Notes under the pieces: generated by a model
The model's input: the letters and a program-made list of their open reading frames with translations, nothing else
Database searches by the model: none
Told to the model about the DNA's origin: nothing
Source: a virus
Length of the DNA: 32,983 nucleotides
IMG/VR virus record: IMGVR_UViG_3300002134_000302
Coordinates: 1 to 32,983 of that record
Direction: 5' to 3' (one strand)
Shown here: piece after piece, positions 3,989 to 32,983 of the stretch
Layout of the letters: each line of letters opens with the position of its first letter
How positions within the stretch are numbered: the first letter of the stretch is position 1
Translations under genes and position numbers: made by a program

Positions 3989-4459
3989 GTGTCTATTGAG
4001 TATTGTGATGACCAAATTCGTTGGTTGTCGGTAGATGATCTGAAAGACCTTAATGAGCTTATGATTATTAGCTTTACCCCCAAGGAAGATGTTGGGGTTC
4101 TGAAGCCAAATGAGCTTGAAAGTTCGCAGGGTTCTCCTGCGAATTATCGTTACTATAAACAGTGTGTTGATATTCCTACCTTGGCTGCTGTTTTATTCTA
4201 CTCAATCTCACGAAATCACGTATTCATGAATGGCAATAAGCGAACGGCAATGGCCGCAGCTGTTGTGTTTTTGCGAATTAACGGTTATCGATTTAGGCCG
4301 GATTATTATGAGGGTTTAATAGTAGCGGAAGATTGCGCAGCTGGTTTATACAATGAGTTGCAAATTGCGCAATGGATTGCTGATCAATGCACGGAATCTG
4401 ATTCTGCTGACTTGGTGAGCGATCAGATGGATGTGCTGCTCGGAATCTTCAAGCCTTAG
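3989..4459 (+). CDS. doc: Doc-type toxin, Fic/DOC family
   Basis: A 156-residue protein started at GTG 3989. It carries the family motif HVFMNGNKRTA (H77 to A87) followed by the hydrophobic helix MAAAVVFLRINGY, as in Doc. Doc of phage P1 phosphorylates elongation factor Tu and stops translation until neutralised by its antitoxin. The GNK form of the motif, rather than the GNGR of AMP-adding Fic enzymes, favours the Doc-like kinase activity. It is about 25-30 residues longer than P1 Doc, mostly at the C-terminus. Its end overlaps the end of the convergent gene at 4456 by four bases. The likely role is prophage maintenance or abortive infection. Confidence 0.87.
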   Translation: MSIEYCDDQIRWLSVDDLKDLNELMIISFTPKEDVGVLKPNELESSQGSPANYRYYKQCVDIPTLAAVLFYSISRNHVFMNGNKRTAMAAAVVFLRINGYRFRPDYYEGLIVAEDCAAGLYNELQIAQWIADQCTESDSADLVSDQMDVLLGIFKP

Positions 4460-5391
4460 GTTATTACTCTTACGCTCAGCTCCTGTTTTATAATACGCTG
4501 CGCCGCTTCCTGTGGTGTGTGTAAATGTACAACAGATATTTCGTGTTTGTCTCCAAAGGCAATTAGGCCTTCTATGCTCGCTGCAATGCGTTTGACGTCG
4601 GCGCTGGCGCGTTGTTCTTGAAGGTCGATGGGCGTGTATATCATCAGCTCATATGTGTTGTGCTGTATGAGTTGCTGATCTTCGTTATGGCTGCGTAGCT
4701 GCTCAAGATGCATAAGATCTGATTCTGCGGCGCTTTTAGCGTAGGTAAGGTCGCGGGTATTGAAGTTCGCAAAATTGGCAGCAATATGGCCGCCAAAAAA
4801 ACCGAAGCGGTAGCTAAATTCGCTGTGGCGGTGTTTGATGGTGATGTTTTGCCCGAACATATTGCCAAGCCTATCGTATTTTTTACAGGTCTCGGCTTTT
4901 ACATTTGCCTCCCATTGGCTGGGTTTTACTGTTGGATCCTGTGCCTTACCTGTTGCTTCATTTACTGTTTTAGCCATAAATACGGCATATGTTTTGACGG
5001 CTATGCGGGCCGCGGCTTCTATGTTTTTAGTGGTTACTGGTCGGCCGCTTCCTTTTTCTGTGCCGCTAAAAAGTGGAATCCAGTCTGAAATATTTTCTGT
5101 TTTAAGCCATTCTTTAAGGTTGCTGGCGGTCTCTGCGGCGATATTAAAGAGGCCTTGCCCAAATGTGCCTAGGTACTTGGTTGCGGTTTGGCTATTTATT
5201 GCGTTGATGACTGTGTTTTGTGAATCTTCGCCAACAACCACTAAGCATATAGTCCAGCGTTCGCCGCTGCCAACTAGCGGTTCCAAATAGATTGGGTAAA
5301 TCTGCCCGCGAAATGAAGTTTGCCTAGCATTTATTAGCTTGGCGACTAGTGGGTCGTCATGTTCAGTTCTGGAAGACCTATCCGCTGGCAT
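4456..5391 (-). CDS. unknown partner protein of the HipA-like kinase
   Basis: A 311-residue soluble protein. The start at 5391 lies inside the end of the HipA-like gene (46-base overlap), so the two are probably co-translated. The N-terminal 60 residues look like a strand-rich domain (IYPIYLEPLVGSGERWTICL), the middle is helical, and the C-terminus carries strands and helices (HEISVVHLHTPQEAAQRII). There are no membrane segments and no catalytic motif I can name. HipA_2-type kinases often stand next to a DUF3037-type partner; whether this is a distant version cannot be told by eye. Third gene of the repressor operon, convergent with doc. Confidence 0.75.
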   Translation of the reverse strand: MPADRSSRTEHDDPLVAKLINARQTSFRGQIYPIYLEPLVGSGERWTICLVVVGEDSQNTVINAINSQTATKYLGTFGQGLFNIAAETASNLKEWLKTENISDWIPLFSGTEKGSGRPVTTKNIEAAARIAVKTYAVFMAKTVNEATGKAQDPTVKPSQWEANVKAETCKKYDRLGNMFGQNITIKHRHSEFSYRFGFFGGHIAANFANFNTRDLTYAKSAAESDLMHLEQLRSHNEDQQLIQHNTYELMIYTPIDLQEQRASADVKRIAASIEGLIAFGDKHEISVVHLHTPQEAAQRIIKQELSVRVIT

Positions 5392-6158
5392 AGCAGTGTG
5401 ACCGTGAAGTTAATTCTTTGTGTAAGAAAGTTTACTATTTCTGACTTAGAAGTAACACCGCCTAGGCGTTCAAAATGGCCGTCTTGGTCTAGTGTTTGTA
5501 GGTCGATTTTAGTTGAGTTCCGCATTAGTGTATTGCAGGTGTCCAGCAATAGTTTTTTGTCTTTTAAGTTTAACGACTCGTGATTTATTAGTAGGCTATT
5601 GTTTACTGCGCGATGTGCATCCTCTAGTCCCCATGTTGGCCAATAGCTGCCGGTTAGGCATCTACCGTGATCAATTAGGCCGATTTCTCTGGACTCTGGG
5701 CTGTAAATTAAATTGCCAAGGTTGCGGTCTTCGTTAGCTACGTACTCATCAAAGCAGCGGGCTTTATTTAGGCCTTCCCAGTTGGCTAGAATTTGCGTGA
5801 AAGCGCTGTTGTTTTCATTGTACTTTCTAGCGCAGTTCATCGGAGCGATGCCAAATTGTGCAGAGGCAAATGCGAAGCGAATGCCGCTGCCAAAAAATGC
5901 GGAATTGTTTGGCAGGTCTTCTTCAAAAACCATTGCTATATACGGCTTAGGTATTGGCATACCTAGTGCGCGACCGATTTGAGAGGCAACCAGCTCTGCG
6001 GTTGCATGGTAGGGATTGGTTGTAAGCTTGAGGTAGGCGGGAGTTTCGTCTGAGGAATTAAGTACTACGCGCCAAGTTTCGGCATCTTTTCCGTCTTCTT
6101 CTCTTTTTATGTATTGAGCAACGCTGACGAGCTCAATCTTTTCCAGCGGGTTTGTCAT
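5346..6158 (-). CDS. HipA-like Ser/Thr kinase
   Basis: A 270-residue protein with HipA/phosphatidylinositol-kinase-like fold features. They are a candidate ATP-lysine strand (AYLKL, K44), the helix AELVASQIGRALGMPIPKPY typical of HipA relatives, the catalytic loop FDEYVANEDRNLGNLI (N142, D144, N149) and the metal-binding LIDHG (D163). All the expected kinase residues are present. It is shorter than E. coli HipA (about 440) and closest in pattern to the compact HipA_2-type kinases. The start lies inside the repressor gene's end (26-base overlap). Sited in the immunity operon, it may be a toxin or superinfection-exclusion kinase; its substrate is unknown. Confidence 0.78.
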   Translation of the reverse strand: MTNPLEKIELVSVAQYIKREEDGKDAETWRVVLNSSDETPAYLKLTTNPYHATAELVASQIGRALGMPIPKPYIAMVFEEDLPNNSAFFGSGIRFAFASAQFGIAPMNCARKYNENNSAFTQILANWEGLNKARCFDEYVANEDRNLGNLIYSPESREIGLIDHGRCLTGSYWPTWGLEDAHRAVNNSLLINHESLNLKDKKLLLDTCNTLMRNSTKIDLQTLDQDGHFERLGGVTSKSEIVNFLTQRINFTVTLLCQRIGLPELNMTTH

Positions 6159-6600
6159 TAGTGAGTCTGCTCGCTATTGTGTCCAGTAAAATAATATCTT
6201 CTTCCGTGAGGAGTCCGTCGAGAGCGGATTTCTCTATTCTTCTGAGTACTTCAAGTGATTTTGGTGTGGCTTTCCCGCTCAACTGGGCGGCTAAGTTGGC
6301 TGCCTGCAGTTCCTGTTGGCTACCAATAATAAGGTCGTCAATTGTGCAGCCCAGCATATTTCTTAAAACTGGGAATCGCTCGATGGAAATATTGCCGCTC
6401 TTAAACCATTGCTGTACGGCTTGCTTTGAAACGTCACATGCCTCAGCAATGTTATCTCTGGACACGCCTAACTCTTCCATTTTCTTTTGGATTCTGTAGG
6501 CGGTTGCATATTTGTCATACGGTGAGTCAAGCATTGCTTTATTGTGCATGTTTTTTTCCGACTCGTCGCCAAGCAATGCTTGAATAGAATTGAAAGCCAT
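6133..6600 (-). CDS. phage repressor (CI-like HTH protein)
   Basis: A 155-residue protein. An XRE-type helix-turn-helix spans roughly residues 36-90 (RIQKKMEELGVSRDNIAEAC, then DVSKQAVQQWFKSGNISIER). The C-terminal part is helical and lacks the S24 self-cleavage Ser/Lys domain of lambda CI, so induction may not be by RecA-driven cleavage. The start at 6600 is chosen for the strong GAAGGAGAG ribosome site on 6606-6614; internal ATGs at 6549 and 6534 are weaker options. It is divergent from cro, the start codons being 15 bases apart, and its own start codon lies inside an operator. First gene of an operon with the HipA-like kinase. Confidence 0.85.
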   Translation of the reverse strand: MAFNSIQALLGDESEKNMHNKAMLDSPYDKYATAYRIQKKMEELGVSRDNIAEACDVSKQAVQQWFKSGNISIERFPVLRNMLGCTIDDLIIGSQQELQAANLAAQLSGKATPKSLEVLRRIEKSALDGLLTEEDIILLDTIASRLTNDKPAGKD

Positions 6601-10792: not shown

Positions 10793-11161
10793 ATGAAAGC
10801 TTTTGGGCGTTATTCCTTTGGGCTCGTTATTGCGATGGTGGTGTGTTTATTGCCGGCGTCGTTTGTGTTGAGTTCTTTGCCTGCCTTTGCTGATGAGTCA
10901 GCTGATGCAATTGGCGTGTTGATTGGTGCGGCAAGTTCTGCCGGCTTGCTGGGTAGTGCGGGCGTGTACATTGGTTATGCGGTCACTGCTGTAGGTGCGG
11001 CTTCTTTGCTGCTGCAGGGTATTGCTGCCGTAACAGGTATTACGCCGAGCACGCGTGATGATGAGTATGTTAATCAGGCTTATCGAGCAGTGGTTAAGGT
11101 GCAGAAGTGGCTAGATCGCTTGGCGTTTAATCCACCGTCCGACAAGGCGAGACGAGGGTAG
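10793..11161 (+). CDS. exported or membrane protein next to the holin
   Basis: A 122-residue protein. ATG 10793 is preferred, with GAGG eight bases upstream, over an in-frame TTG at 10763. The N-terminus is a signal-peptide-like segment (LVIAMVVCLLPASFVLSSLP followed by AFA, a likely cleavage site). Two further hydrophobic segments lie around residues 45-85 (IGVLIGAASSAGLLGSAGVY and YAVTAVGAASLLLQGIAAV). The tail is soluble and basic. A membrane-associated role in lysis or virion assembly is possible. No family recognised with confidence. Confidence 0.65.
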   Translation: MKAFGRYSFGLVIAMVVCLLPASFVLSSLPAFADESADAIGVLIGAASSAGLLGSAGVYIGYAVTAVGAASLLLQGIAAVTGITPSTRDDEYVNQAYRAVVKVQKWLDRLAFNPPSDKARRG

Positions 11162-11171
11162 CTTGTAGTTC

Positions 11172-11849
11172 GTGTCTAGTTTAAAACTTAGCCTTCAAGG
11201 TATGCCTAACGTTAAGGCATACATGAAGGGCTTTGAAAGCCAGATACCGTTTGCAACTGCAGTGGGTTTGACGCGTACGAGCAAGGCTGCGCAGGGCGAC
11301 CTCACCAACAGCATCGGCAGCGTGTTCGACAGGCCAACGGCGCGAACTAAGAGCGCCGTGTTTTCTACCAGTGCAAACAAGCGCAACTTGCGTGCGCAGG
11401 TCGGGATCAAAGACAAAACAAGCGGTGGGAGAGCTCCGGCTGATTATCTATCGGCCCAAATACTGGGTGGCCGGCGCAAAGCGAAAGGCTTAGAGCGGGC
11501 ATTGCAGTCACGCGGGTTAATGCGCAAGGGACAGATGCTAGCGCCGCGTCGCGACACCAAGCTCAACCGATACGGCAACATTAGCAAGGCGCAAGCCCGT
11601 GCAGTGATTAACAGCATTGATTCTGGGGGCACCGGTCGCGGCAGAAAGTATGTTGTAAAGGCCGGCGAAGGCGTTTATTGGCGCAAGGGTAAGGGCTTAA
11701 AGGGCTTCTTAAACATCATTGACGAGCCTACATATCAATCACGTTTTGATTTCTACGGGCTGGGCGCCAAGTCAGTAGCCAAGCACCTGCCAGAGCAAAT
11801 GCGCAAAGCAATGGCTGAGGCCATCATCAGCGCCAAGCCTAAGGGCTAA
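11172..11849 (+). CDS. minor tail/virion protein, gpZ-like
   Basis: A 225-residue, very basic protein with a GTG start at 11172. The N-terminal half (MKGFESQIPFATAVGLTRTS and KAAQGDLTNSI) matches the pattern of phage minor tail proteins of the lambda Z type, in which FA-x-x-x-ALN-x-TA is followed by a basic linker. The middle is Lys/Arg-rich and mentions no enzyme motif. The C-terminal part has strands and a final helix. In lambda Z lies in the tail cluster, but in many GpA-terminase prophages a related gene precedes the terminase, as here. The family assignment is moderately sure. Confidence 0.6.
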   Translation: MSSLKLSLQGMPNVKAYMKGFESQIPFATAVGLTRTSKAAQGDLTNSIGSVFDRPTARTKSAVFSTSANKRNLRAQVGIKDKTSGGRAPADYLSAQILGGRRKAKGLERALQSRGLMRKGQMLAPRRDTKLNRYGNISKAQARAVINSIDSGGTGRGRKYVVKAGEGVYWRKGKGLKGFLNIIDEPTYQSRFDFYGLGAKSVAKHLPEQMRKAMAEAIISAKPKG

Positions 11850-11956
11850 GGGGTGGGGCGGCGTTCAAAAGGTACTCCTGAGCCCTGCCGCGCACGGGTA
11901 ATTCGTGCCGCGTTCTTTTAACAGATATATAAATTTGCTAGGGGGGTTATATTCAA
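11850..11956. other. candidate cos region upstream of the terminase genes
   Basis: This gap of about 107 bases, directly before the small terminase gene, contains a G-rich start (11850-11862), a C/G-rich middle with GCACG (11893-11897) and CGTGC (11905-11909) in inverted orientation, and an A/T-rich end. Lambda-type terminases cut at cos just upstream of nu1, so this is the place to expect it. No staggered nick site can be proved by eye. Confidence 0.35.
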
Positions 11957-12433
11957 GTGGATATGGGTTCTCAAGCTACTCAGGAAGCTTTTGCGCAACT
12001 GGTCGGCACTACTCAGCCCGCGATCGCCAAGCACGTGAAAGCTCAAGTGCTTTCTGACGGCGGCACATTTTCAGAGTGGTTGATTGAATATTGCAGGAGG
12101 CTCCGCGAAGAGGCGGCAGGGCGAGTGCCAACCGATGCTCGCGAACGAAAAGACGTTGCCCAAGCGAGAGATGCCGAGGCAAATGCAGCGCTGAAAGAGC
12201 GAGAGCTGTATCGGCAAGATGGACTTATCTTGGATGCTGCCACTGTGCGCGATACCTTGGTGGAGTGGATATCGGTTAGTAAAAACGAATTTACAGGAGT
12301 CGTGGACAAGATCATCACGTCTATCGAATCAGACCATGGAATCACAGTTGAACGAGATCGGTTACAGCAAGACGTTGACGCTGCCTTGCGAGCTATTGAA
12401 AGTTACTCGTTCGAATTTGAAGGCGCTGATTGA
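11957..12433 (+). CDS. terminase small subunit, Nu1-like
   Basis: A 158-residue protein. The N-terminus (residues 3-45: TQEAFAQLVGTTQPAIAKHV) is a winged-helix-type DNA-binding motif that should recognise the packaging site. Residues about 60-90 are charged helix (RERKDVAQARDAEANAALKE) as in Nu1-family proteins, and the C-terminal half is the part that contacts the large subunit. GTG 11957 is about 10 bases after AGGGGGG; ATG 11963 is the alternative. The next gene, terminase large subunit, overlaps its end. Confidence 0.85.
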   Translation: MDMGSQATQEAFAQLVGTTQPAIAKHVKAQVLSDGGTFSEWLIEYCRRLREEAAGRVPTDARERKDVAQARDAEANAALKERELYRQDGLILDAATVRDTLVEWISVSKNEFTGVVDKIITSIESDHGITVERDRLQQDVDAALRAIESYSFEFEGAD

Positions 12434-14423
12434 CGAGGTACGCAAAGAGTGGGCGCCACAAGTAAACATGCCGCTGCTCGAATGGCTGCCAGAAAATATA
12501 CGCCTCCCCGCCGAGGATAGCGACACCGCTGGGTATTACCGCATAGAGTCGGTGCCGTATTTCTGGGGCGTAATGCATGCGCTAGACAGCGATGAAAGCT
12601 GGCTTGTTGTAATGCAGAAGGCCGCTCAAATTGGTTGGACGGTTCTGTTGGCGGCATGGATCTGCAAGGTGGCGAAGTTAGATCCCAGCCGAATATTGGC
12701 GCTGTTTCCTAAAGACGAAAAAGCGCGCAACTTTATTGATGAAAAGATGGTGCCAATGATTGGCGCATCGCCATCGATGAGGAAAGTTATTGATGTCAGC
12801 ACTAGCCGAAAAGCAGGTAATCGCACCACGGTAAAGAAGTTCGCAGGCGGCGAACTCAAGTGCACTGGATCGAATAGCGTAAGTAACGTTAAGTCGACAA
12901 GCGCACGGCGCGGCATTGTAGAAGAGCCAGACGACACCAACCGCGACATAGGCGACCAAGGCGACGCGATCCGCTTATTCCGCGAGCGCCTAAAACGCAT
13001 GCGCAAAAAGAAGCTGGTTGTTGGCGGCACACCGTCGGTGGCCGATCTGTCGCAAGTTGAACACTACACGCGGCTTGGCACCATGCGCATATTGCCGGTG
13101 ACATGCCACGACTGCGGCGAAAGTCATGTGCTGGACTGGCAGCAAGTCAGTTGGGACACCAAAGAAGGCGGCTCACCGCACCCTGTGTTTGGCTTAAACC
13201 TGCCAGACACCGCAATCTACAGCTGCCCACACTGCGGCAGTCTGTGGAGTGACTACCGGCGTCAGCGCAATATTTTGGATACCTGCAGAACGGCATATGA
13301 TGCTGGCGACAAATTTGCCGGCTGGGTAAAGCAGCAAATTGGCGATGGCTACACCGCCGATCAGTGCGAACCCATTGAAACCTTCATGGAGTTGTCAGAG
13401 CTTTATGTTTGCATGCCTGGCACCAGCTTGGCAGACGTGGTGCGAGATTATTTGGAGGCAGAACACGAAGCCGAAGCCGGTGATGAATCAGCCCGCATCG
13501 TATTTCAAAACAGCAAACTTGGCAGGCCGTACCAATACGCGGCCAACCAAGTTTTGGATAGCGAAACCCTGCGCAAATCGGCAGAAGACTATCCCGAACT
13601 AACCTGCCCAGAAGGCGGCTTGATGGTCACCGTTGGCGTCGACGTTCAGCATGATCGGTTGGCGGTGATTATTCGCGCCTTTGGTCGCAATGAAGAAAGT
13701 TGGCTGATGCACTGGGGCGAGATCGACGGCGACCCAGCCGACAAGCAAGACGCTTGCTGGGACGCGCTCGACAAACTCATATTTCAGCCATTCACGCACA
13801 CGCGGTTTGGCAGCATTATCGCTGCGGCGGTCAGTATCGATTCGTCAGACGGCACCACCAGTAACGCAGTTTATAACTGGGTGCGCACTCGCACTAAGAA
13901 ATATCGCGGCACCCTGATCATGGCGATTAAGGGTGACAGCAACGACCAAGGCACAAAAGAAATATTTAGCCTGCCACGGCAGGTAGATCGCAACAACGCA
14001 AAACGGCCAACCAAGGCAGACCGCTTTGGTGTGCGGGTTTACATGGTCGGCACCCACAAAGCCAAAGACCTAATAGCAAAACGCTTGCAAGGCACCAGCG
14101 CCTACATGCACAGCTGCATGCACGTTCGCCAAGACTACTGGGAACAAGTAACTGCCGAGGTCAAAGCACCCAGCAAGCGCCATCGCGGCAAGCTGCTTTG
14201 GCAACTGCGCAGCGGAAAACGTAACGAAGCAGGCGACTGCGAAAATTACGCACTGCACGCTGCACACGCCAAAGGCATGCACAAACTGACTGACGGTAAA
14301 TGGTCAGAGATAGAGGCCCGCCTAGGGCAAAAAACATTATTCAGCGACACAGGTGAAACAGCAGAACACAAACCAAAGCGCAAGCGGCGCGGATCTGCAC
14401 CTGTTGGGTCGTTGTTGGGATAG
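12396..14423 (+). CDS. terminase large subunit, GpA family
   Basis: A protein of about 675 residues that packages DNA into the prohead. Recognisable parts are the N-terminal adaptor motif (EWLPENIRLPAEDSDTAGYY then VPYFWGVM), a Walker A-like strand VVMQKAAQIGWT, a Walker B region RGIVEEPDD, a zinc-ribbon pair (CHDCGES and CPHCGSLW), and the nuclease domain (VTVGVDVQHDRLAVIIRAFG, with GRNEESWLMHWGEIDGDP). All correspond to lambda gpA. The start is uncertain: TTG 12396 keeps the N-terminal helix with a 38-base overlap; ATG 12336 and ATG 12468 are alternatives. There is no strong ribosome site, so coupling to nu1 is likely. Confidence 0.93.
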   Translation: MKVTRSNLKALIDEVRKEWAPQVNMPLLEWLPENIRLPAEDSDTAGYYRIESVPYFWGVMHALDSDESWLVVMQKAAQIGWTVLLAAWICKVAKLDPSRILALFPKDEKARNFIDEKMVPMIGASPSMRKVIDVSTSRKAGNRTTVKKFAGGELKCTGSNSVSNVKSTSARRGIVEEPDDTNRDIGDQGDAIRLFRERLKRMRKKKLVVGGTPSVADLSQVEHYTRLGTMRILPVTCHDCGESHVLDWQQVSWDTKEGGSPHPVFGLNLPDTAIYSCPHCGSLWSDYRRQRNILDTCRTAYDAGDKFAGWVKQQIGDGYTADQCEPIETFMELSELYVCMPGTSLADVVRDYLEAEHEAEAGDESARIVFQNSKLGRPYQYAANQVLDSETLRKSAEDYPELTCPEGGLMVTVGVDVQHDRLAVIIRAFGRNEESWLMHWGEIDGDPADKQDACWDALDKLIFQPFTHTRFGSIIAAAVSIDSSDGTTSNAVYNWVRTRTKKYRGTLIMAIKGDSNDQGTKEIFSLPRQVDRNNAKRPTKADRFGVRVYMVGTHKAKDLIAKRLQGTSAYMHSCMHVRQDYWEQVTAEVKAPSKRHRGKLLWQLRSGKRNEAGDCENYALHAAHAKGMHKLTDGKWSEIEARLGQKTLFSDTGETAEHKPKRKRRGSAPVGSLLG

Positions 14424-14437
14424 AAAGGGGAAAGCTA

Positions 14438-14875
14438 ATGAGATCAATATTTACGATCTTGGCAGGTGCAATTGTTGGCGTTGCGATAGGCTTGCTTTTG
14501 GATGATATCGCTGTGGGTGCGGGGGTAGTTTTTCTTGTGCCATTACTTTTTGAATCATCGCCAACGCGGCAAAGACTTTGGGAGAAGGCTGTTAAAAACC
14601 ACCCGCAAGGGCAAGTGCTATCACGCTGGCTGCTCGTAGTACGCGCTGTGCTATTCCCGTTAGATACATTTTATTGGCGCATGAGCAAAACGCGCGGCTA
14701 CGACTGGCAAACTGATTCATGGAATATTGAAGGCGTTCGGTATCCGCGTTCCGCACTTAACGCCCTTCGCCGGGCAAGCGGTGAATGCTACCCGTTAGAT
14801 TTCTATGGTGAGTCTATAGTTATTAAGCGTGAGGAAATCGGCAGCACTAAGATTAGCCAGCCCTTTTCTGACTAA
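14438..14875 (+). CDS. inserted membrane protein (moron-like)
   Basis: A 145-residue protein with two N-terminal hydrophobic segments (FTILAGAIVGVAIGLLL and VGAGVVFLVPLLF) and a basic soluble tail with many aromatic residues (DTFYWRMSKTRGYDWQTDSW). GAAAGGGGAAAG lies just upstream as ribosome site. It lies between the terminase and gpW, where most related phages have no gene, and has its own terminator downstream, which is typical of morons. A host-membrane role such as superinfection exclusion is a guess. No family recognised. Confidence 0.7.
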   Translation: MRSIFTILAGAIVGVAIGLLLDDIAVGAGVVFLVPLLFESSPTRQRLWEKAVKNHPQGQVLSRWLLVVRAVLFPLDTFYWRMSKTRGYDWQTDSWNIEGVRYPRSALNALRRASGECYPLDFYGESIVIKREEIGSTKISQPFSD

Positions 14876-14908
14876 AAATTTAAAACAAAGTTTCACATGA
14901 AACACCCC

Positions 14909-14933
14909 AAACCGGCCAAGCGCCGGTTTTTTT
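14909..14933 (+). terminator. rho-independent terminator after the membrane protein
   Basis: Stem AAACCGGC (14909-14916) with GCCGGTTT (around 14922-14929), short loop and a T-run to 14933. It lies inside the late operon, so polymerase must read through it for head gene expression. Confidence 0.85.
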
Positions 14934-14949
14934 ACGCCTAGGAAAACAC

Positions 14950-15171
14950 ATGACTCAATCTGCAAGCGACATGCTCGACCTGTATATACAGGCCGAAAAG
15001 GATGTGCTCGAAGGTAAGACCACCACCATGAATGGTCGCACCCTGAGCATGGAGAACCTGCAAGAGATCCGTGCTGGCCGTAAAGAATGGGAGCGGCGTG
15101 TGGCGTCTGTAAATGCGACGGCAGCAGGGCGCAAGCGTCGGAGCCCAGCACTGGCGACCTTTGTACGATGA
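14950..15171 (+). CDS. head-tail joining protein, gpW-like
   Basis: A 73-residue protein. Its acidic helical start (ASDMLDLYIQAEKDVLEG), the strand TTTMNGRTLSMENLQEI, and the basic end (RKEWERRVASVNATAAGRKR) match lambda gpW, which fills the portal ring and readies the head for tail joining. It is encoded directly before the portal gene, as W is before B in lambda, with an ATGA overlap at 15168-15171. Confidence 0.85.
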   Translation: MTQSASDMLDLYIQAEKDVLEGKTTTMNGRTLSMENLQEIRAGRKEWERRVASVNATAAGRKRRSPALATFVR

Positions 15172-16703
15172 ACATTATTGATAAAACCATTGGCGCAATC
15201 TCGCCTGAGCGCGGGTTAAAACGCTGGAAGGCACGGCAAGCCCTGCAAATTGCAGCGCGCTACGAAGCCGCCCAGCCCAGCCGCACCCGTAAAAACCCTG
15301 CTGACAATCGCAGCGGCGACGCGGTTACAGAGTACGACATTGTGACGCTGCGCGGCCAAGCGCGGCACCTAGAACAAAACCATGATTTTGCTTTTGGCAT
15401 ATTAACCACGCTGATCAATAACATTGTTGGGCCGCGCGGTATTGCTGTCGAGTTTATGCCCAAGCGCATTGGCAGCGACGAAATTGACGCCGACCTAGCC
15501 GCCGAAATGGGCGAGGCATATAAAGAATGGTGCCGCCGTCCTGAATGCACCGGCCAGCATAGCTGGGCCAAAACCCAACGCCTGCTGGCGCTCACATGGC
15601 TGCGCGATGGTGAAGTATTACTGCGCCATTTAGAGGGCGTAATACCTGGGCTAAAGCACGGCAGCAACGTGCCTTACAGCGTTGAATGTTTTGAGCCTGA
15701 CTTTTTACCCGTTGACCACAACGACCCAGCCAAACGAATTGTTCAAGGCGTGGAAAAAAACGCATGGGGCCAGCACGTTGGCTACTGGCTGTATGACGAT
15801 CATCCCGGCGGTAACAAATTTTGGAAGATGCAGGCGCGCCGTTATTCGGCCACCAATATTGAGCACTTAAAGTTTGTGCGTCGCTTACACCAGACTCGGG
15901 GCGTGTCGATTTTTGCCACGGTAATGAACCGCATAAACGACATTAAAGACTACGAAGAAGCCGAGCGCGTAGCTGCAAAGATCGCCAGCATGATGGTGGG
16001 CTTTATTCAGAAAGGCGATGCCAGCCTTTACGAAGGTAGCGACGACACCGACGGCGATGGCAACCGCCAATTAAGTTTTCAGGCTGGTGGCATCTATGAC
16101 GATTTAGAGCCCGGCGAAACTGTGGGCACTATTCAAAGTAATCGCCCCAGCGCCTTGCTCACCCCGTTTTTAGAAACCATGCAGCGCATGGCGGCCACCG
16201 GCACCATGGCCAGCTTTAGCAGTATTAGTAAAAACTACAACGGCACTTACAGCGCCCAGCGCCAAGAACTAGTGGAGCAATGGAGCAACTACGAAACCCT
16301 CAGCCTTGAATTCTGTGAAGAGATCGTAGAGCCGGTAGTGCGCCGCTGGGTGCAAATGATGCAGCTAAGCGGTGCTATTGATATCCCGCCAGAGGTGGAC
16401 GTTAGCAGCTTGCTGCATGTGGATTTCATCACCCCAAGCATGCCGTGGATCAACCCCGTGCACGAAGCGCAGGCGGACGAAATACTGCTGGAAAACATGC
16501 TTATCAGCCCTCAGCAGTCCATTCGCCGACGCGGCCGAAACCCCCATGAGGTGCTGGATCAAACGGCATTGTGGAACAAAAGCGTCAAAGAAAAAGAACT
16601 TGCTACGCCAGCCAAGCGACCAACAACAAGTGACACTGAGAGTGACCCCGTTACCAAGGCCGCACTAGCCATGCTGGAAGGGCTCAGCAATGAAGGCGGC
16701 TGA
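15168..16703 (+). CDS. portal protein, lambda gpB family
   Basis: A 511-residue protein with the ordinary portal length. The N-terminus carries the family pattern ([20 protein letters not shown]), then [36 protein letters not shown], the stem region ([29 protein letters not shown]) and the C-terminal [20 protein letters not shown]. Portals form the dodecameric ring through which DNA enters and leaves. ATG 15168 is ATGA-coupled to gpW. The C-terminus is short and Thr-rich and overlaps the next gene by 14 bases. Confidence 0.94.
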
Positions 16704-17982
16704 CAGGCGCAGCGAGCTACTCAGCCTGGCAGTCGCTGCGAAAGCAGTAAAGGTAATGGCCAAGGCTGCAAACCTGCGTTGGCGAGGTAGCTACAAGCGC
16801 GATGCCGACTACCTTGCCGGTGATGTGGTGTTTTGGCAGGGCAGCAGCTACGTATGCGACACGCCCTGCAAGGGTGTGCTGCCGAGCAACACAGACAACT
16901 GGACGCCGCTGGCGCTGAGGGGCGCGCAAGGCCAGACCGGGCCAGCAGGCCCTCAGGGGCTGAAAGGCGATACCGGCGACACTGGTCCAGCAGGCCCGCA
17001 AGGCCTGAAAGGCGATACCGGCGACACTGGCCCAGCAGGCCCTCAGGGACTGAAAGGCGATACCGGCGACACTGGTCCAGCAGGTCCGCAAGGCCCGAAA
17101 GGCGATACCGGCGACACTGGCCCAGCAGGCCCTCAGGGACTGAAAGGCGATACCGGCGACACTGGCCCAACAGGCCCTCAGGGACTGAAAGGCGATACCG
17201 GCGACACTGGCCCAGCAGGCCCTCAGGGACTGAAAGGCGATACCGGCGACACTGGTCCAGCAGGTCCGCAAGGCCCGAAAGGCGATACCGGCGACACTGG
17301 CCCAGCAGGCCCTCAGGGACTGAAAGGCGATACCGGCGACACTGGCCCAACAGGCCCTCAGGGACTGAAAGGCGATACCGGCGACACTGGCCCAGCAGGC
17401 CCTCAGGGACTGAAAGGCGATACCGGCGACACTGGCCCAGTAGGCCCTCAGGGGCTGAAAGGCGATACCGGCGACACTGGCCCGCGCGGACCAGGCATGG
17501 AGCTTTGGACTGGCGAAGACTACCCGGCAGTAGGTGACTTTCCAGAGCCGCTAGCGATCATGTACCGGCAGGCGGACGGTAGCTTATTTTTCCGCGTGAA
17601 TGACCCGCAGTCGGGCGAGCTTGTCGCGCGTGTGCTCAACCAGTGGCAGAGCGACTATCTATACGAAGCGAAGGCAAATAAGGGCGTTAACGGCGGGTAT
17701 CCCGCGATAAACGAGAATGGCGGGATTGACGCTGTGGCGTTTGGTGCGACAGCAATTGCAGGCAACGGCGGGTACTTCGTTAATGGTGTGAGAGTTGTGG
17801 GCGCCCAGCAGCCTGTTATCGCCGACTCTCAAGCGCCTGTCTCTAGCGAAAACGTCGATGTTTTTTACGGCTCCACAGAGCAAGACGTTATCCGGAGCTT
17901 GCAGACCACGGTTAACGAGCTGCAAACCACACTGAATTCAGCGCTCGCAGCTTTGCGAGCACACGGCTTAATTGCCCAGTAG
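16690..17982 (+). CDS. collagen-like virion protein
   Basis: A 430-residue protein with three parts. Residues about 28-75 form a small carbohydrate-binding-like module ([20 protein letters not shown], then NTDNWTPL). Residues about 84-263 are twelve collagen-type 15-residue units [15 protein letters not shown], with occasional P or T variants, a strict Gly-X-Y triple-helix pattern. Residues about 264-430 form a C-terminal domain ending in a leucine heptad helix ([20 protein letters not shown]) suited to trimer formation. It overlaps the portal end by 14 bases and precedes the capsid protease. A head-fibre or surface decoration role is inferred. Confidence 0.85.
16939..17478 (+). repeat. collagen tandem repeat, 12 x 45 bp
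   Basis: Twelve in-frame 45-bp units encode the 15-residue collagen unit. Inside the array, 17041-17220 is repeated exactly as 17221-17400, a 180-bp block of four units, with the match running on both sides (at least back to 17011 and on to 17435). The third bases are nearly uniform, so the array spread recently by recombination or slippage. Confidence 0.97.
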
Positions 17983-18019
17983 AGCCCAGTCGCTGGCAAT
18001 AGCAAAACGAGGAAACCCC

Positions 18020-18106
18020 ATGCACACAAAACAACAACCACGCGCCAGTGCGCGAGGCGGCAGCGCTGCGCCCAAAGAAAAGCCAGCGCGGCAGCGAATC
18101 AGTTAG
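18020..18106 (+). CDS. possible 28-residue peptide upstream of the capsid gene
   Basis: A short frame MHTKQQPRASARGGSAAP... starts at ATG 18020 with GAGG eight bases upstream and ends at TAG 18106. It is very basic and lies in the 158-base gap between the collagen-like gene and the protease-capsid gene. It could be a small structural or leader peptide, or chance. The good ribosome site is the only support. Confidence 0.3.
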   Translation: MHTKQQPRASARGGSAAPKEKPARQRIS

Positions 18107-18140
18107 CGGCAACCACACAACCCAACAAGCAGGTATAGCA

Positions 18141-20183
18141 ATGAGCAAACACTGGTACAGCATGGCGATGAGCTCGCCCCAGGCAGCGGCCAACAAAACC
18201 GCCGAAATTCATATCTATGGTTACGTTGGCGGATGGGATGTAAGCGCCCGCCAATTTGCCAAAGACCTAAAAGAACTCGGCGAGCTGGATGAAATTCAGC
18301 TGCACATTAACAGCCCCGGCGGTAGCGTGTTTGAAGGTACCGCCATCTACAACCTGCTGAAGAACCACAAGGCCAAAATCGAAACCCATATTGACGGTAT
18401 TGCCGCCAGCATGGGCAGTGTAATCGCCCTGGCAGGCGACACGGTGCACATTGCCGAGAACGCCTACTTCATGATTCACAACCCAAGCGGCGTGGTCGCA
18501 GGGGAAGAGAAAGACATGAAAAAGGCGGCCGACCTGCTGGCCAAGATAAAAACCACCATGGTCAACCTCTACTCATCGCGCAGCGGCATGAGCGAAGAAG
18601 CGGTGGTAGAGGCTATGGATGAAGAAACCTGGTACGCCGGCACCGAAGCCGTAGAAGCAGGCTTTGCCACTGACACCACCGCAGCGATCGATTTGGCCGC
18701 GTGCTATGAGTCTGACCTTCTCAACAAATTCAAGAACACACCAAACGCCGTGCTTGAAGCGGCCACGGTGAGCACGGACACAACATTTACCCCGTCTGCG
18801 GTTGCAGGCACTCAACCCAAGCAAGAGGCTAAACCTATGGACCCTAAAAACCCTAAGCCGGTTGCAACCGCCGATGATGAAGCGATTGTAACCCCCGAAA
18901 TGCGCGCTGCCATCGTTGCCGAGGCTCAACAAGCCGAAGCCACACGCCGCACAGAGATTAAAGCTGTATTTAAAGGCTTTGACGCTCACAGCGACGTAAT
19001 GACCGCCTGCCTTGATGATATGAACTGCGACATGCAGGGCGCCAAAGACAAACTGTTAGCAGCCCTAGGCTCTAGCAACAGTCAGCCTGGCCACAGCTAC
19101 AGCATTGTAGTGCAAGACGGTGCCGGTATTGCTCGAATGAAAGCCCATGCTGAAAACACCATTGCGATGCGTGCACTGGGTGCCAAGCGCGAAGAAAACA
19201 ACGAGCTGGCCGGCTACACCATGTTTGAACTGGCCCGCATGATGCTGCACGCGCGCAACGTGAACACCGGCGGCATGGACAAAATGGCATTGGTTGCTGC
19301 TGCGTTTACTCACAGCTCTGGCGACTTCACCACCGTGCTTGGCAACATCGCCTATAAGGCAATGTTAAAAGGCTACGAAGAAGCCGACGAAGTGTTCCAG
19401 CGCTTCACCTCGGTTGGTTCATTCAGCGACTTTAAGGTACACACTCGCACTGATCTTGGCTCGTTTCCAAGTCTGCGCAAAGTGGCTGCAGGCGCCGAAT
19501 ACAAATATGTGACGATTGGTGAGCGTGCAGAAACCGCAGTGCTGGCCACCTACGGCGAAAAATTCGGCATTAACCGCCAAGCGATTATTAACGATGACCT
19601 TGGCTTGTTCACGCGCCTGCCTAAGAAAATGGGTGGGGCGGCAATCCGCACCGTTGGCGACTTGGTGTTTGATATTTTCCTGAACAACCCGGCAATGGCA
19701 GACACAGTTGCATTGTTCCATGCCAATCATAGCAACCTGTTATCAGCTAGCGGTATCAACACTGCTGGTATTGATGCGGCGCGCACTGCAATGGGGACAC
19801 AAAAGGACGGCAATGCCACACTTAACCTTCGTCCCAAATTCTTGTTGTGCGGCATTGGCGACGAAGGCGCAGCCAAAGTTGCACTAGAGTCAGAATTTGA
19901 AGTTGGGGCCAGCGCTAAGAACAACACCGTGCCTAACAGTGTGCGCGGGCTTTGCGAAGTTATTAGTGACGCGCGCCTAACCGCAGCACATAACTCGTGG
20001 TATTTGCTAGCTGACCAAAACATGCACGACACCATTGAAGTGCAGTATTTAGATGGCCAGCAAGCCCCAGTGCTTGAGCAGCAAAACGGCTGGGACGTTG
20101 ATGGTACTGAATTCAAAGTACGCATGGACGCAGCAGCAAAAGCGTGGGACTACCGCGGCATGACCAAAACCCCTAAAAGCTAA
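18141..20183 (+). CDS. ClpP-type prohead protease/major capsid fusion protein
   Basis: A 680-residue protein. Residues about 15-200 are a ClpP/S14-type prohead protease with INSPGGSVFEG, the serine motif GIAASMGSVIALAG, MIHNPSG with the catalytic histidine, and a late AGFATDTTAA aspartate. Residues about 230-290 form the scaffold-like linker (charged helix). Residues about 300-680 are the major capsid domain (FQRFTSVGSFSDFKVHTRTD, EKFGINRQAIINDDLGLFTR, LFHANHSNLLSA). ATG 18141 is chosen over an upstream GTG because the motif content begins there. This is the fused form of the lambda C/Nu3 and E functions. The protease is expected to cut itself off during maturation. Confidence 0.93.
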   Translation: MSKHWYSMAMSSPQAAANKTAEIHIYGYVGGWDVSARQFAKDLKELGELDEIQLHINSPGGSVFEGTAIYNLLKNHKAKIETHIDGIAASMGSVIALAGDTVHIAENAYFMIHNPSGVVAGEEKDMKKAADLLAKIKTTMVNLYSSRSGMSEEAVVEAMDEETWYAGTEAVEAGFATDTTAAIDLAACYESDLLNKFKNTPNAVLEAATVSTDTTFTPSAVAGTQPKQEAKPMDPKNPKPVATADDEAIVTPEMRAAIVAEAQQAEATRRTEIKAVFKGFDAHSDVMTACLDDMNCDMQGAKDKLLAALGSSNSQPGHSYSIVVQDGAGIARMKAHAENTIAMRALGAKREENNELAGYTMFELARMMLHARNVNTGGMDKMALVAAAFTHSSGDFTTVLGNIAYKAMLKGYEEADEVFQRFTSVGSFSDFKVHTRTDLGSFPSLRKVAAGAEYKYVTIGERAETAVLATYGEKFGINRQAIINDDLGLFTRLPKKMGGAAIRTVGDLVFDIFLNNPAMADTVALFHANHSNLLSASGINTAGIDAARTAMGTQKDGNATLNLRPKFLLCGIGDEGAAKVALESEFEVGASAKNNTVPNSVRGLCEVISDARLTAAHNSWYLLADQNMHDTIEVQYLDGQQAPVLEQQNGWDVDGTEFKVRMDAAAKAWDYRGMTKTPKS

Positions 20184-20202
20184 TTCTTAGCAATTAACCA
20201 AT

Positions 20203-20232
20203 AAAAACCGCCGACATAGTTCGGCGGTTTTT
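20203..20232 (+). terminator. rho-independent terminator after the capsid gene
   Basis: Stem CCGCCGA (20208-20214) with TCGGCGG (20221-20227), six-base loop, flanking A-run and T-run. It lies between the capsid and decoration genes. Confidence 0.9.
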
Positions 20233-20265
20233 GTATCTGCATTCTGAAAATTTTGGAGAAATAAA

Positions 20266-20628
20266 ATGGCTGACAATTATGTAGCAGCAGGGAATGTCCT
20301 GGATCATATCGCGAGTGGCGATATTGCCAGTAACGAAGTGGTGGTCATGGGCAATATTTTGGGCGTGGCGCTAGATGATATCGCTGATACCGAAACGGGT
20401 CCCGTGCAAATTAAGGGTGTGTTTACTGTACCCAAAGTAAGTGGCGCCGTTATTGCGCAAGGCGAATCGCTCACTTACGACGTAAGTGCCGAGGCCTTCG
20501 ACGATAGCGCGGCAACACCCGCAACCGGTGACATTACTGGCGCAGCAGCAGTTGCTGCAGTGGCAGCGGCTGACGGTGAAACCACTATGCAGGTGTTATT
20601 CACTGGCGTGCCGGGCACCGTTAACTGA
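20266..20628 (+). CDS. DUF2190-like capsid decoration/cement protein
   Basis: A 120-residue protein, MADNYVAAGNVLDHIASGDI, with the DUF2190 pattern of strand-turn repeats (VVVMGNILGVALDDIADTET then VFTVPKVSGAVIAQGESLTY) ending in a valine strand. Such proteins decorate and stabilise the capsid after expansion, like lambda gpD in role. A GGAG ribosome site stands upstream of ATG 20266. Directly after the TGA at 20626-20628 the same frame stays open for 23 codons to TAA 20700. Confidence 0.85.
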   Translation: MADNYVAAGNVLDHIASGDIASNEVVVMGNILGVALDDIADTETGPVQIKGVFTVPKVSGAVIAQGESLTYDVSAEAFDDSAATPATGDITGAAAVAAVAAADGETTMQVLFTGVPGTVN

Positions 20629-20719
20629 GACGAAGAGCCGTCAGAGGGTGGCTTAGTCGACTTTTTTGACGATCTTTTAAACCCTCTGCTGCTGCCGTAA
20701 TCAACCGGCGAGGTAATCA

Positions 20720-21031
20720 ATGGCCAACTTTAACGCCACCATCGCTAAGCGAGATTTGCGCATGCTCACTCGCCTTGGTGATGCGCTGGTATGGACCAAA
20801 ACCGACACCACCACGGTGGAAGGTAACGGCATTATTGATTTAGAGGCGGAGATCTACGGCAACAACGATGCCGTGCCGTATATCGGTAAAGTTGTCACTG
20901 TGGCGCGTAGCTTTGTGGGCGTATACGCGATGGGAGAAACCATCACAGATACGCTTACCAGCAAGGTTTACAAACTGCAGCGCGTTGTTAAAGACGACGG
21001 GGCAGTGCGCACCATCGAGGTCACAACATGA
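20720..21031 (+). CDS. head-tail connector, gpFII-like
   Basis: A 103-residue protein with a strand-rich sequence (VVTVARSFVGVYAMGETITD then SKVYKLQRVVKDDGAVRTIE) of the kind seen in head completion proteins such as lambda FII, which sits between portal and tail. The stop overlaps the next ATG (ATGA-type, 21028-21031). Order (capsid, decoration, this gene, tail terminator, tail tube) supports the call; the sequence pattern alone is not specific. Confidence 0.65.
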   Translation: MANFNATIAKRDLRMLTRLGDALVWTKTDTTTVEGNGIIDLEAEIYGNNDAVPYIGKVVTVARSFVGVYAMGETITDTLTSKVYKLQRVVKDDGAVRTIEVTT

Positions 21032-21411
21032 TCGCCGATCTGGTCACGCTGCTAGAAAGCGTTAGCGAGCTGCAAACCGTGAAACAAGCCTACACGCTGG
21101 TACCGCTCGAAGATTTAAGCGAGGCCTGCCCGGCGTGCTTTGTGCTGCCAGTCGGCGAAAGCGCCGGCCAAAACACGGGTGACAATTATGTAAACCAAAG
21201 CCTAAGCACAGACTGGGGCTTTTTTGTGGTGTGCAAGGTAGAAGACCTAGACACGGTGCGACTTGCAATACGCACCAAGCTGCTGGGTTGGACGCCAAAT
21301 GCTTATTCAGACCACACCGTGTTTGTCAGTGGCGAAATACTAGACCTCAAGGGCGAATACCTGTGGTGGCGCGACGTTTACCGCACCAACACCTACATTC
21401 GCGCAACTTAA
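21028..21411 (+). CDS. tail terminator/completion protein, gpU-like
   Basis: A 127-residue protein, MIADLVTLLESVSELQTVKQ, with the usual form of gpU-like tail terminators: an N-terminal helix, then strands (ACFVLPVGE, DWGFFVVCKVEDL), a helix (TVRLAIRTKLLG) and a final strand around EYLWWRDVYRTNTYI. The terminator caps the tail tube and joins it to the head connector. It comes between the connector and the tail tube gene, as expected. Confidence 0.75.
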   Translation: MIADLVTLLESVSELQTVKQAYTLVPLEDLSEACPACFVLPVGESAGQNTGDNYVNQSLSTDWGFFVVCKVEDLDTVRLAIRTKLLGWTPNAYSDHTVFVSGEILDLKGEYLWWRDVYRTNTYIRAT

Positions 21412-21522
21412 CCGTTAAACCCTAACCCTTAGCGACCAGCAAACACCGTGCTTAGCGCGGCGCTTTTGCGTGGCCGCTTGTTACGCAAACCCAAACCACA
21501 ACCGCATTACAGGAGGTCAGTC

Positions 21523-31136: not shown

Positions 31137-31637
31137 ATGGCCTCAGTCACATTTAACGAAGACATAGGCGGCGACGGCAGCACCGTTACCGACGACGGCA
31201 ATGCTTCCACCGGCTTAGCGCAAGACGGCCACCGCACGCGGTTTGTACCGGCGCTGGCGCAAATCGTCGCTGTTGCCAGCTGGGTAAAAACCACCGCGCT
31301 CACCGTGCTGGGCTATAAAAACTCAGCAGAAAACAGCGAGGCCGCCGCACTAGACTACAAAAACCAAGCGGCCGCATCGGTTGTTGCCGCTACAGCGCAA
31401 GTTACAGCCGCAACATTGCAGGCTGATCGCTCAGAACAGGCAGCCACCAACTCAGAATACTGGGCTGGCTTGGCAGCAAGCACCACACCAAACGCAGCGA
31501 TAAGAATAAACCCACGCACAATTTTAGAAAGCGTTGGCATAGCAACAGGCCACAACGGGCTGTCTGCTGGGCCAATCGCCATAGGCGACAACGTCACAAT
31601 CACAATCGGGCAAAGTGCCACTTGGAGCATAGTATGA
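31137..31637 (+). CDS. fibre-neck or tail-tip protein with Ala-rich helix
   Basis: A 166-residue protein with a good GGAG ribosome site before ATG 31137. The N-terminus is Gly/Asp-rich. Residues about 60-110 are a long alanine-rich helix (NSEAAALDYKNQAAASVVAA) of the sort that forms trimeric coiled coils in fibre shafts. The end is a short strand region (IAIGDNVTITIGQSATW). Its stop overlaps the start of the final gene (ATGA at 31634-31637), so it may support or attach that receptor-binding protein. Confidence 0.65.
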   Translation: MASVTFNEDIGGDGSTVTDDGNASTGLAQDGHRTRFVPALAQIVAVASWVKTTALTVLGYKNSAENSEAAALDYKNQAAASVVAATAQVTAATLQADRSEQAATNSEYWAGLAASTTPNAAIRINPRTILESVGIATGHNGLSAGPIAIGDNVTITIGQSATWSIV

Positions 31638-32983
31638 GTCAATTAATCGTAAGCGAGATCGTAGGTAAAGAGGGTGCGCCGGTTTATTTCCCCGGCGGTA
31701 TTCGTGTGGGTAGCACTGGCACCGGCGGCATTAACGACATAGGTATACCAGGGCAGGCGGGCTTCGGCCTTGGTATTGCACCTGAGCTGCCCAGTGGCAT
31801 GACAGAAATGACCGGCTACGCCGACGTGCTTAGCGATAACTACGGCAACTACCAGTATTCAGACGGCTCAATCATGGTGTGGGTGCCTGCGTTTTATTAC
31901 AAATACGGCACCGGCGCCAATGGGCTAGCAATCAACGCCTGCGACATAAAAAATATAGATGCCTATACAACAGTAACTGCAGCCAATGCGGCTGGCTACG
32001 CCCTGCACCGCGCCTTTTATGACGGCGGGCAAATAAAGCAAGGTTTTTTTGTAGACAAATATCTTTGCTCTAACAACTCGGGTGTGGCGAGCAGTTTGCG
32101 CAACGGCGTACCAATCTCGTCAAGCGCTAGTAATAGCCCAGTGGCTGATTTAGATGGCGTTTCTAGCAATATAAATGCCTCGTTTATCACGGCGGCAAGT
32201 TTGCGCGGCACGGGCTTTTTCTGTCAGTCCATATTTATTTTTAAAGCAATGGCATTACTCAGCTACGCCCACGGGATAGCGTCAAGTAGCCCCACTTACT
32301 GCGCATGGTACGACGCCGCAGGCATTACCAACTTCCCCAAGGGCTGCAACAACAATGCGCTGGGTGATACCAACGACAACACGCTGAGCTTTACGACTAG
32401 CGGTTACGACAACGCATGTTTAACGGGTAGTGCTAATTTTTTAGCTAAAACGGCGCATAACGGCCAAAACTGCGGTGTAGTGGATCTAAACGGCTGCATG
32501 TGGGAGGTATGCCCAGGCTTAACGATGGACGACAACGACCCGTCTGTCGGCAAGTTTTATGTGCTCAGTACAGATACTGCTATGGCAAACGTTACCAGCG
32601 GCACTAGCTTGGCTACTGATCTGTGGGGCGCAACGGGCTTGGCTGCGCTCTACGACGACCTTGGCGTAATGAACTCATTTACAAGCACGGCGCTAGACTT
32701 TTCTGATCGCGGAATTGATGTTGGCAGCGTGTCTAAAACATTCTCCGAGGCAACAAGCGGCACGCTATGGCAAATGACCGGTGCCGGCATCCCTGTCGAT
32801 GCCGGCGGCACTAATGCTTTCGGCAATGATCGCATAAACGACTACTCAACGGCGTCGATGCTCCCCCTTGCTGGCGGCACCTGGAACAACAGCGCGCCCG
32901 CCGGTGTTTGGGCGCTGCTTTTGAGCCATTCGCGCGCGTCCTCGCCTCATCACTGCGGGTTTCGTGCGGCCTTGTATCTTTGA
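31634..32983 (+). CDS. receptor-binding protein with C-type-lectin fold, DGR target type
   Basis: A 449-residue protein at the very end of the tail cluster. Residues about 75-449 fit the formylglycine-enzyme/C-type-lectin fold: GQIKQGFFVDKYLCSNNSG (as in xFxIDKYEVTN), VVDLNGCMWEVCPGL (as in DLxGNVWEW), and a C-terminal stretch reading GGTWNN, AGVWALLLSHSRAS and CGFRAALYL. This C-terminal pattern is that of diversity-generating-retroelement target proteins such as phage tail adhesins. No catalytic site for formylglycine formation is proposed. ATG 31634 overlaps the preceding TGA. Confidence 0.85.
   Translation: MSQLIVSEIVGKEGAPVYFPGGIRVGSTGTGGINDIGIPGQAGFGLGIAPELPSGMTEMTGYADVLSDNYGNYQYSDGSIMVWVPAFYYKYGTGANGLAINACDIKNIDAYTTVTAANAAGYALHRAFYDGGQIKQGFFVDKYLCSNNSGVASSLRNGVPISSSASNSPVADLDGVSSNINASFITAASLRGTGFFCQSIFIFKAMALLSYAHGIASSSPTYCAWYDAAGITNFPKGCNNNALGDTNDNTLSFTTSGYDNACLTGSANFLAKTAHNGQNCGVVDLNGCMWEVCPGLTMDDNDPSVGKFYVLSTDTAMANVTSGTSLATDLWGATGLAALYDDLGVMNSFTSTALDFSDRGIDVGSVSKTFSEATSGTLWQMTGAGIPVDAGGTNAFGNDRINDYSTASMLPLAGGTWNNSAPAGVWALLLSHSRASSPHHCGFRAALYL
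32880..32980 (+). other. predicted DGR variable region
   Basis: The last 100 or so bases of the gene have DGR variable-repeat signs. The stretch 32891-32953 has only 5 A in 63 bases. The codons at the variable-looking positions (agc, ccc, ctt, agc, cat, tcc, cct, cat, cac) all end in C or T, as expected if an AAC/AAT template were copied with errors at A. It is followed by a constant G/T-rich end (32954-32974, CGFRAAL), where the initiation-of-homing site would be. The template and reverse transcriptase are not in the window. Confidence 0.78.

Follow-up and report, generated by a model that had tools for sequence, protein, structure and literature searches.

A probable DGR variable region at the end of a tail gene in a prophage of a Zhongshania-like marine gammaproteobacterium

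RESULTS AND DISCUSSION

The last gene of the record ends in a probable DGR variable region

We analyzed the IMG/VR record IMGVR_UViG_3300002134_000302, a single virus record whose 32983 bases are referred to here as the window. Positions 32858 to 32971 on the plus strand are almost certainly the variable region (VR) of a diversity-generating retroelement (DGR) target gene, carried by a prophage whose host is a marine gammaproteobacterium resembling Zhongshania. An earlier note, made from the letters alone, had proposed that the last tail gene ends in a DGR-type VR, and this is borne out by complete DGRs of the same gene order in homologues, by the pattern of differences from the Zhongshania marina homologue, and by a fold match to the DGR variable protein TaqVP.

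The target gene (31634 to 32983, plus strand) encodes a putative tail or receptor-binding protein of 449 amino acids with a C-terminal FGE-type C-type-lectin domain. The final stop codon coincides with the end of the window, as the note had said, and the protein ends in ...MLPLAGGTWNNSAPAGVWALLLSHSRASSPHHCGFRAALYL before the stop. The layout of this C terminus, W-N-N-S-A-P-A-G-V-W-A-L...C-G-F-R-A-A-L-Y-L, also reads as previously described. Among PHROGs families, the target matches phrog_20912 (3.9e-22), phrog_2889 (1.4e-17), and phrog_5302, "tail protein" (8e-10), which are weakly named families, and a search of Pfam and NCBIfam gave no match. The C-type-lectin fold had been a guess from sequence, and both fold prediction and profile search now support it. 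A profile built from 22 target homologues found PDB 5vf4 (E = 3.8e-06), which is TaqVP (PMC6328139). The AlphaFold model of the target has a mean pLDDT of 75 and a pTM of 0.84, with low confidence at residues 232 to 273, and its best match among solved structures in Foldseek is again TaqVP (E = 4e-12 over about 420 columns), with formylglycine-generating enzyme and Mtd variants ranking after it at non-significant scores. In a viral structure library, most of the named proteins that match the model are annotated as tail collar or tail fibre. From these matches and from the position of the gene after the tail genes, we infer a role for the protein as the receptor-binding tip.

TaqVP of Thermus aquaticus is thus the closest known system by both fold and profile, and like the target it is an FGE-type C-type-lectin DGR variable protein with its VR at the extreme C terminus and a fixed last strand. 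The two proteins differ in that they share only 16 to 18% identity and in that the target is a siphovirus-like prophage tail protein with an added N-terminal part. The gene immediately before the target and overlapping it (31137 to 31637, plus strand, 166 amino acids; phrog_5342, 2.6e-06) shows a weak match to a phage tail fibre C terminus, and its position is conserved in Z. marina and in the L050 locus described below.

Homologous targets are followed by a complete DGR cassette

A scan of IMG/VR gave 24 target-encoding loci, and in 13 of these 24 related viral records a reverse transcriptase (RT) gene lies about 0.8 to 1.5 kb past the homologous target. In each of the 13 RT-bearing records, the end of the gene also recurs next to the target as a near-copy, the template repeat (TR). 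When near-duplicate records were counted once, 149 of the 155 TR/VR mismatches in these relatives fell on an A in the template copy. A search of the genomes of the family to which Z. marina belongs identified a second carrier, genome G036, whose locus (L050) has a 75% identical target and shares a syntenic run of four genes with the window, at 57 to 75% amino acid identity. L050 encodes an Avd protein (PF22296, 3e-19; phrog_3206, "Avd protein of DGR") and an RT of phrog_1423 and has a TR at about 10540, and all 14 mismatches between its own VR and TR fall on an A in the TR.

The order target-hairpin-avd-TR-RT-p145, where p145 is a conserved small gene 3' of the RT, is shared by the 13 viral records and L050, with the succession target-avd-TR-RT-p145 seen by tblastn. 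In these cassette-bearing relatives avd lies directly 3' of the target and the TR follows it; the L005 and L006 records stop within or shortly past avd. A GC-GRNA-GC hairpin core is found 20 to 28 nt past the VR in 13 of the 14 cassette-bearing relatives, compared to a background of 0.03 per 80 nt, and a hairpin of this type is required for homing in Bordetella phage BPP-1 (PMC3240598). The relatives resemble the BPP-1 DGR (mtd-avd-TR-brt) in this GRNA-loop hairpin, in the order target-hairpin-avd-TR-RT, in adenine-linked TR/VR mismatches, and in having a phage tail protein as target, with the VR at its C terminus. They differ from it in the small gene p145 after the RT; in addition, the fold match of Mtd to the target is non-significant (E = 0.13 to 0.5), and the window shows the target alone.

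Differences from the Z. marina homologue fall on template adenines

The nearest target homologue is that of Z. marina (87% amino acid identity), and the two genes align without gaps over 450 codons. Across codons 1 to 408, they differ at 151 of 408 third positions and at 71 first or second positions, and most of these differences are synonymous. In codons 409 to 449, in contrast, none of the 41 third positions differ while there are 20 differences at first or second positions, a change in pattern with a Fisher P value of 7.5e-10. When the same comparison was scored on the L050 TR, 17 of 27 template-A sites differed, compared to 3 of the remaining 84 sites (Fisher, 1.5e-10), so the variation is concentrated on template-adenine positions. 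As a control we used the pair L006/L007, which both have avd and of which L007 has a complete, local DGR. Here, 83 of 411 third positions differ upstream and 0 of 38 differ in the VR, where there are 23 first- or second-position changes. Since this pattern occurs with a local DGR in L007, the pattern in the window is what a local DGR gives. Elsewhere in the target, codons 87 to 136 (31892 to 32041) also have no third-position differences from Z. marina, and codons 91 to 150 have no amino acid changes, in contrast to the VR; together, these observations suggest a recent recombination in this part of the gene.

The VR aligns without gaps to the L050 TR. Its left edge was placed at 32858, since codon 409 is where the gapless TR/VR homology in relatives and the stretch free of third-position changes both begin. 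The earlier note was right to locate the variable region at the C terminus, but its left limit does not hold because the region starts further left than proposed, and the right end lies at about 32971. At its 3' end the VR reads GGGTTTCGTGCGGCC (32957 to 32971, plus strand), which is IMH-like, a name taken from the BPP-1 literature (PMC3240598), and its counterpart in the L050 TR is GGGTTCCGTGCGGAC. The terminal C-versus-A difference between the two is also seen in L013, L014, L016, and L020.

Base composition had been part of the original argument. The count of 5 A's among the 63 bases at 32891 to 32953 is correct, but it is only mild evidence for a DGR and was set aside as such, because 470 of 32920 63-base stretches in the record (1.4%) are equally A-poor. 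The codons at variable positions had been described as NNY, and all 11 VR codons that are AAY in the L050 TR do end in C or T in the window.

Taken as a DGR target, the gene would be diversified by an RT that, with Avd, copies the template-repeat RNA with errors at adenines, after which the mutated cDNA would replace the VR from its IMH end upstream. About 13 to 15 residues on the binding face of the C-type-lectin domain would be randomised in this way at the phage tail tip, and progeny with an altered tip could adsorb to altered receptors.

The cassette probably lies just past the end of the record

The 33-kb record ends at the target stop, and a search inside it for an RT, Avd, or TR gave none; a gapless search of the window for a TR gave nothing above chance (33/60). 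The window extends 12 nt past the VR end, while the hairpin of the relatives lies 20 to 28 nt past the VR. We also scanned the collections with the core and the end of the VR and with the TR end to be expected; the Z. marina prophage and the contig of L050 itself were the sole hits, and the DNA flanking the window is absent from the collections searched. The note's further claim that the remaining cassette lies just outside the window is plausible. We consider it probable that the phage has kept avd-TR-RT immediately beyond the end of the record, because L050, the next relative out, and most other relatives carry the cassette and because Z. marina and this phage are unlikely to share one loss.

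The main alternative is that the window holds an orphan target, in which a past DGR made the VR but avd, TR, RT, and hairpin have since been lost, as in Z. marina, leaving the tip frozen. The nearest homologue lacks both cassette and hairpin, so the phage of the window could lack both as well. In the Z. marina prophage (L025:10350-10383), the target stop is followed by 32 bases (TTTTTGTTGGCCAATAATTTAGGAG...) that lead straight into p145. A search of the 4.1-Mb draft genome of Z. marina found no DGR RT and no Avd, and a gapless TR search at the locus gave nothing above chance (31/60). This genome does encode four copies of one 401-amino-acid RT with equal scores, which we judge to be group II intron-like from the identity of the copies and their much higher RVT_1 score. 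In L008 (L008:9257-9294), the target is joined directly to p145, and on a target tree that excludes the VR the cassette must have been gained or lost at least five times, although some absent states come from incomplete records, so that the number of losses is not firmly five. Against an orphan target stands the complete cassette in L050. Moreover, a loss shared with Z. marina would not give 20 first- and second-position differences and no third-position differences in the VR, since differences arising after the loss would not be expected to avoid third positions. As synonymous sites are unchanged in the VR and changed upstream, any loss in the phage of the window would have been separate from that in Z. 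marina. We therefore regard an orphan target as unlikely, though it is the strongest competitor to a retained cassette.

Diversification in trans, with the DGR at another site in the host or on a related phage resident in the same cell, is far less probable. It would fit the unchanged third-position run beginning exactly at the VR edge, as expected for cDNA homing from a shared template, and DGR machinery can rewrite a target that has been transplanted together with IMH and hairpin (PMC3240598). However, Z. marina has neither a hairpin nor any DGR RT, and a search of it for a second VR-like stretch found none. We set aside homing between phages on the grounds that the L006/L007 pair, with its local cassette, behaves alike, which makes action in trans unneeded. 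The weakest reading is that there is no DGR and that diversifying selection or recombination acts on an ordinary tail-fibre tip, A-poor by composition. Positive selection on tail tips is common, and equally A-poor stretches are not rare in the record. Ordinary selection, however, would neither suppress third-position changes across 41 codons nor direct 17 of 20 changes to adenines of the template. In homologues, moreover, the gene is adjoined by a TR and an RT, and the comparison of the window with Z. marina and L050 already contradicts this reading, leaving it highly improbable.

Cassette presence and absence among close relatives

Besides Z. marina and L008, L012 also has a target without the cassette. 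In L012 (L012:9578-10246), a 216-amino-acid minus-strand open reading frame lies between target and p145 in place of avd-TR-RT. The GC-GRNA-GC hairpin was sought past the VR and is absent in Z. marina, L008, L012, L022, and L023, while the L015 and L018 records end too early to score. In L019 (L019:9602-9630), the hairpin (GCGATAGC) directly follows the target, and no RT or Avd was found in that record, possibly making this a half-decayed DGR site.

A literature search on DGR targets that are orphaned or lack an RT yielded no papers, the nearest precedent being a study of crAss-like phages (PMC7290462). In the DGRs of Alphacrassvirinae genus I, the VR is present in 80 genomes and the TR in 30 (PMC7290462), so that, as in our cassette-less relatives, a VR target is kept where the TR or RT is missing or truncated. 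Those systems differ in having no avd and another target family, and many of their losses are partial, whereas the cassette is wholly absent in Z. marina.

We tentatively offer one reading of these data, namely, that avd-TR-RT and the hairpin are repeatedly lost between target and p145, leaving intact, recently diversified targets as a natural "locking" of a tuned tip, with the phage of the window just before or just after such an event; it remains more doubtful than not. Z. marina, L008, and probably others too would be examples. Loss of the cassette after diversification would fix a successful tip. The clean presence or absence of the cassette among close relatives adds interest beyond the VR itself, since the close pair of L050, which has the cassette, and Z. 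marina, which does not, allows mutator retention and loss to be compared directly. More broadly, these data extend the range of phages known to rewrite their tail tips to a prophage family of gammaproteobacteria, among them Zhongshania.

Features of the surrounding prophage

The first bases of the record are TCA, belonging to a minus-strand open reading frame, and the last three are the target stop. As both ends are stop codons, we infer that the record is a provirus trimmed at gene boundaries on both sides. The genes of the window include a GpA-type terminase, portal, ClpP-capsid fusion, tail tube, and tape-measure. By blastn, both flanks match the Z. marina ZX-21 prophage record at 74 to 87% DNA identity, and the head module between them (11150 to 21450, about 11.2 to 21.4 kb) has no match to that prophage, an arrangement that appears to be a module swap. 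Within the head module, a ClpP-type protease and the major capsid protein are fused in one open reading frame (18048 to 20183; PF00574 and PF25209). Between the portal and ClpP-capsid genes, and distant from the tail module, 12 tandem repeats of 45 bases (16942 to 17483; 92% matches) encode a collagen-like tail-fibre stretch. The lysogeny region at 3989 to 6600 contains a Fic/Doc gene (PF02661, 9.5e-12), an HTH regulator, and a HipA-like kinase gene (PF20613, 3.6e-09) that adjoins a 311-amino-acid gene without a Pfam match, and together these genes may form a toxin-antitoxin or exclusion island.
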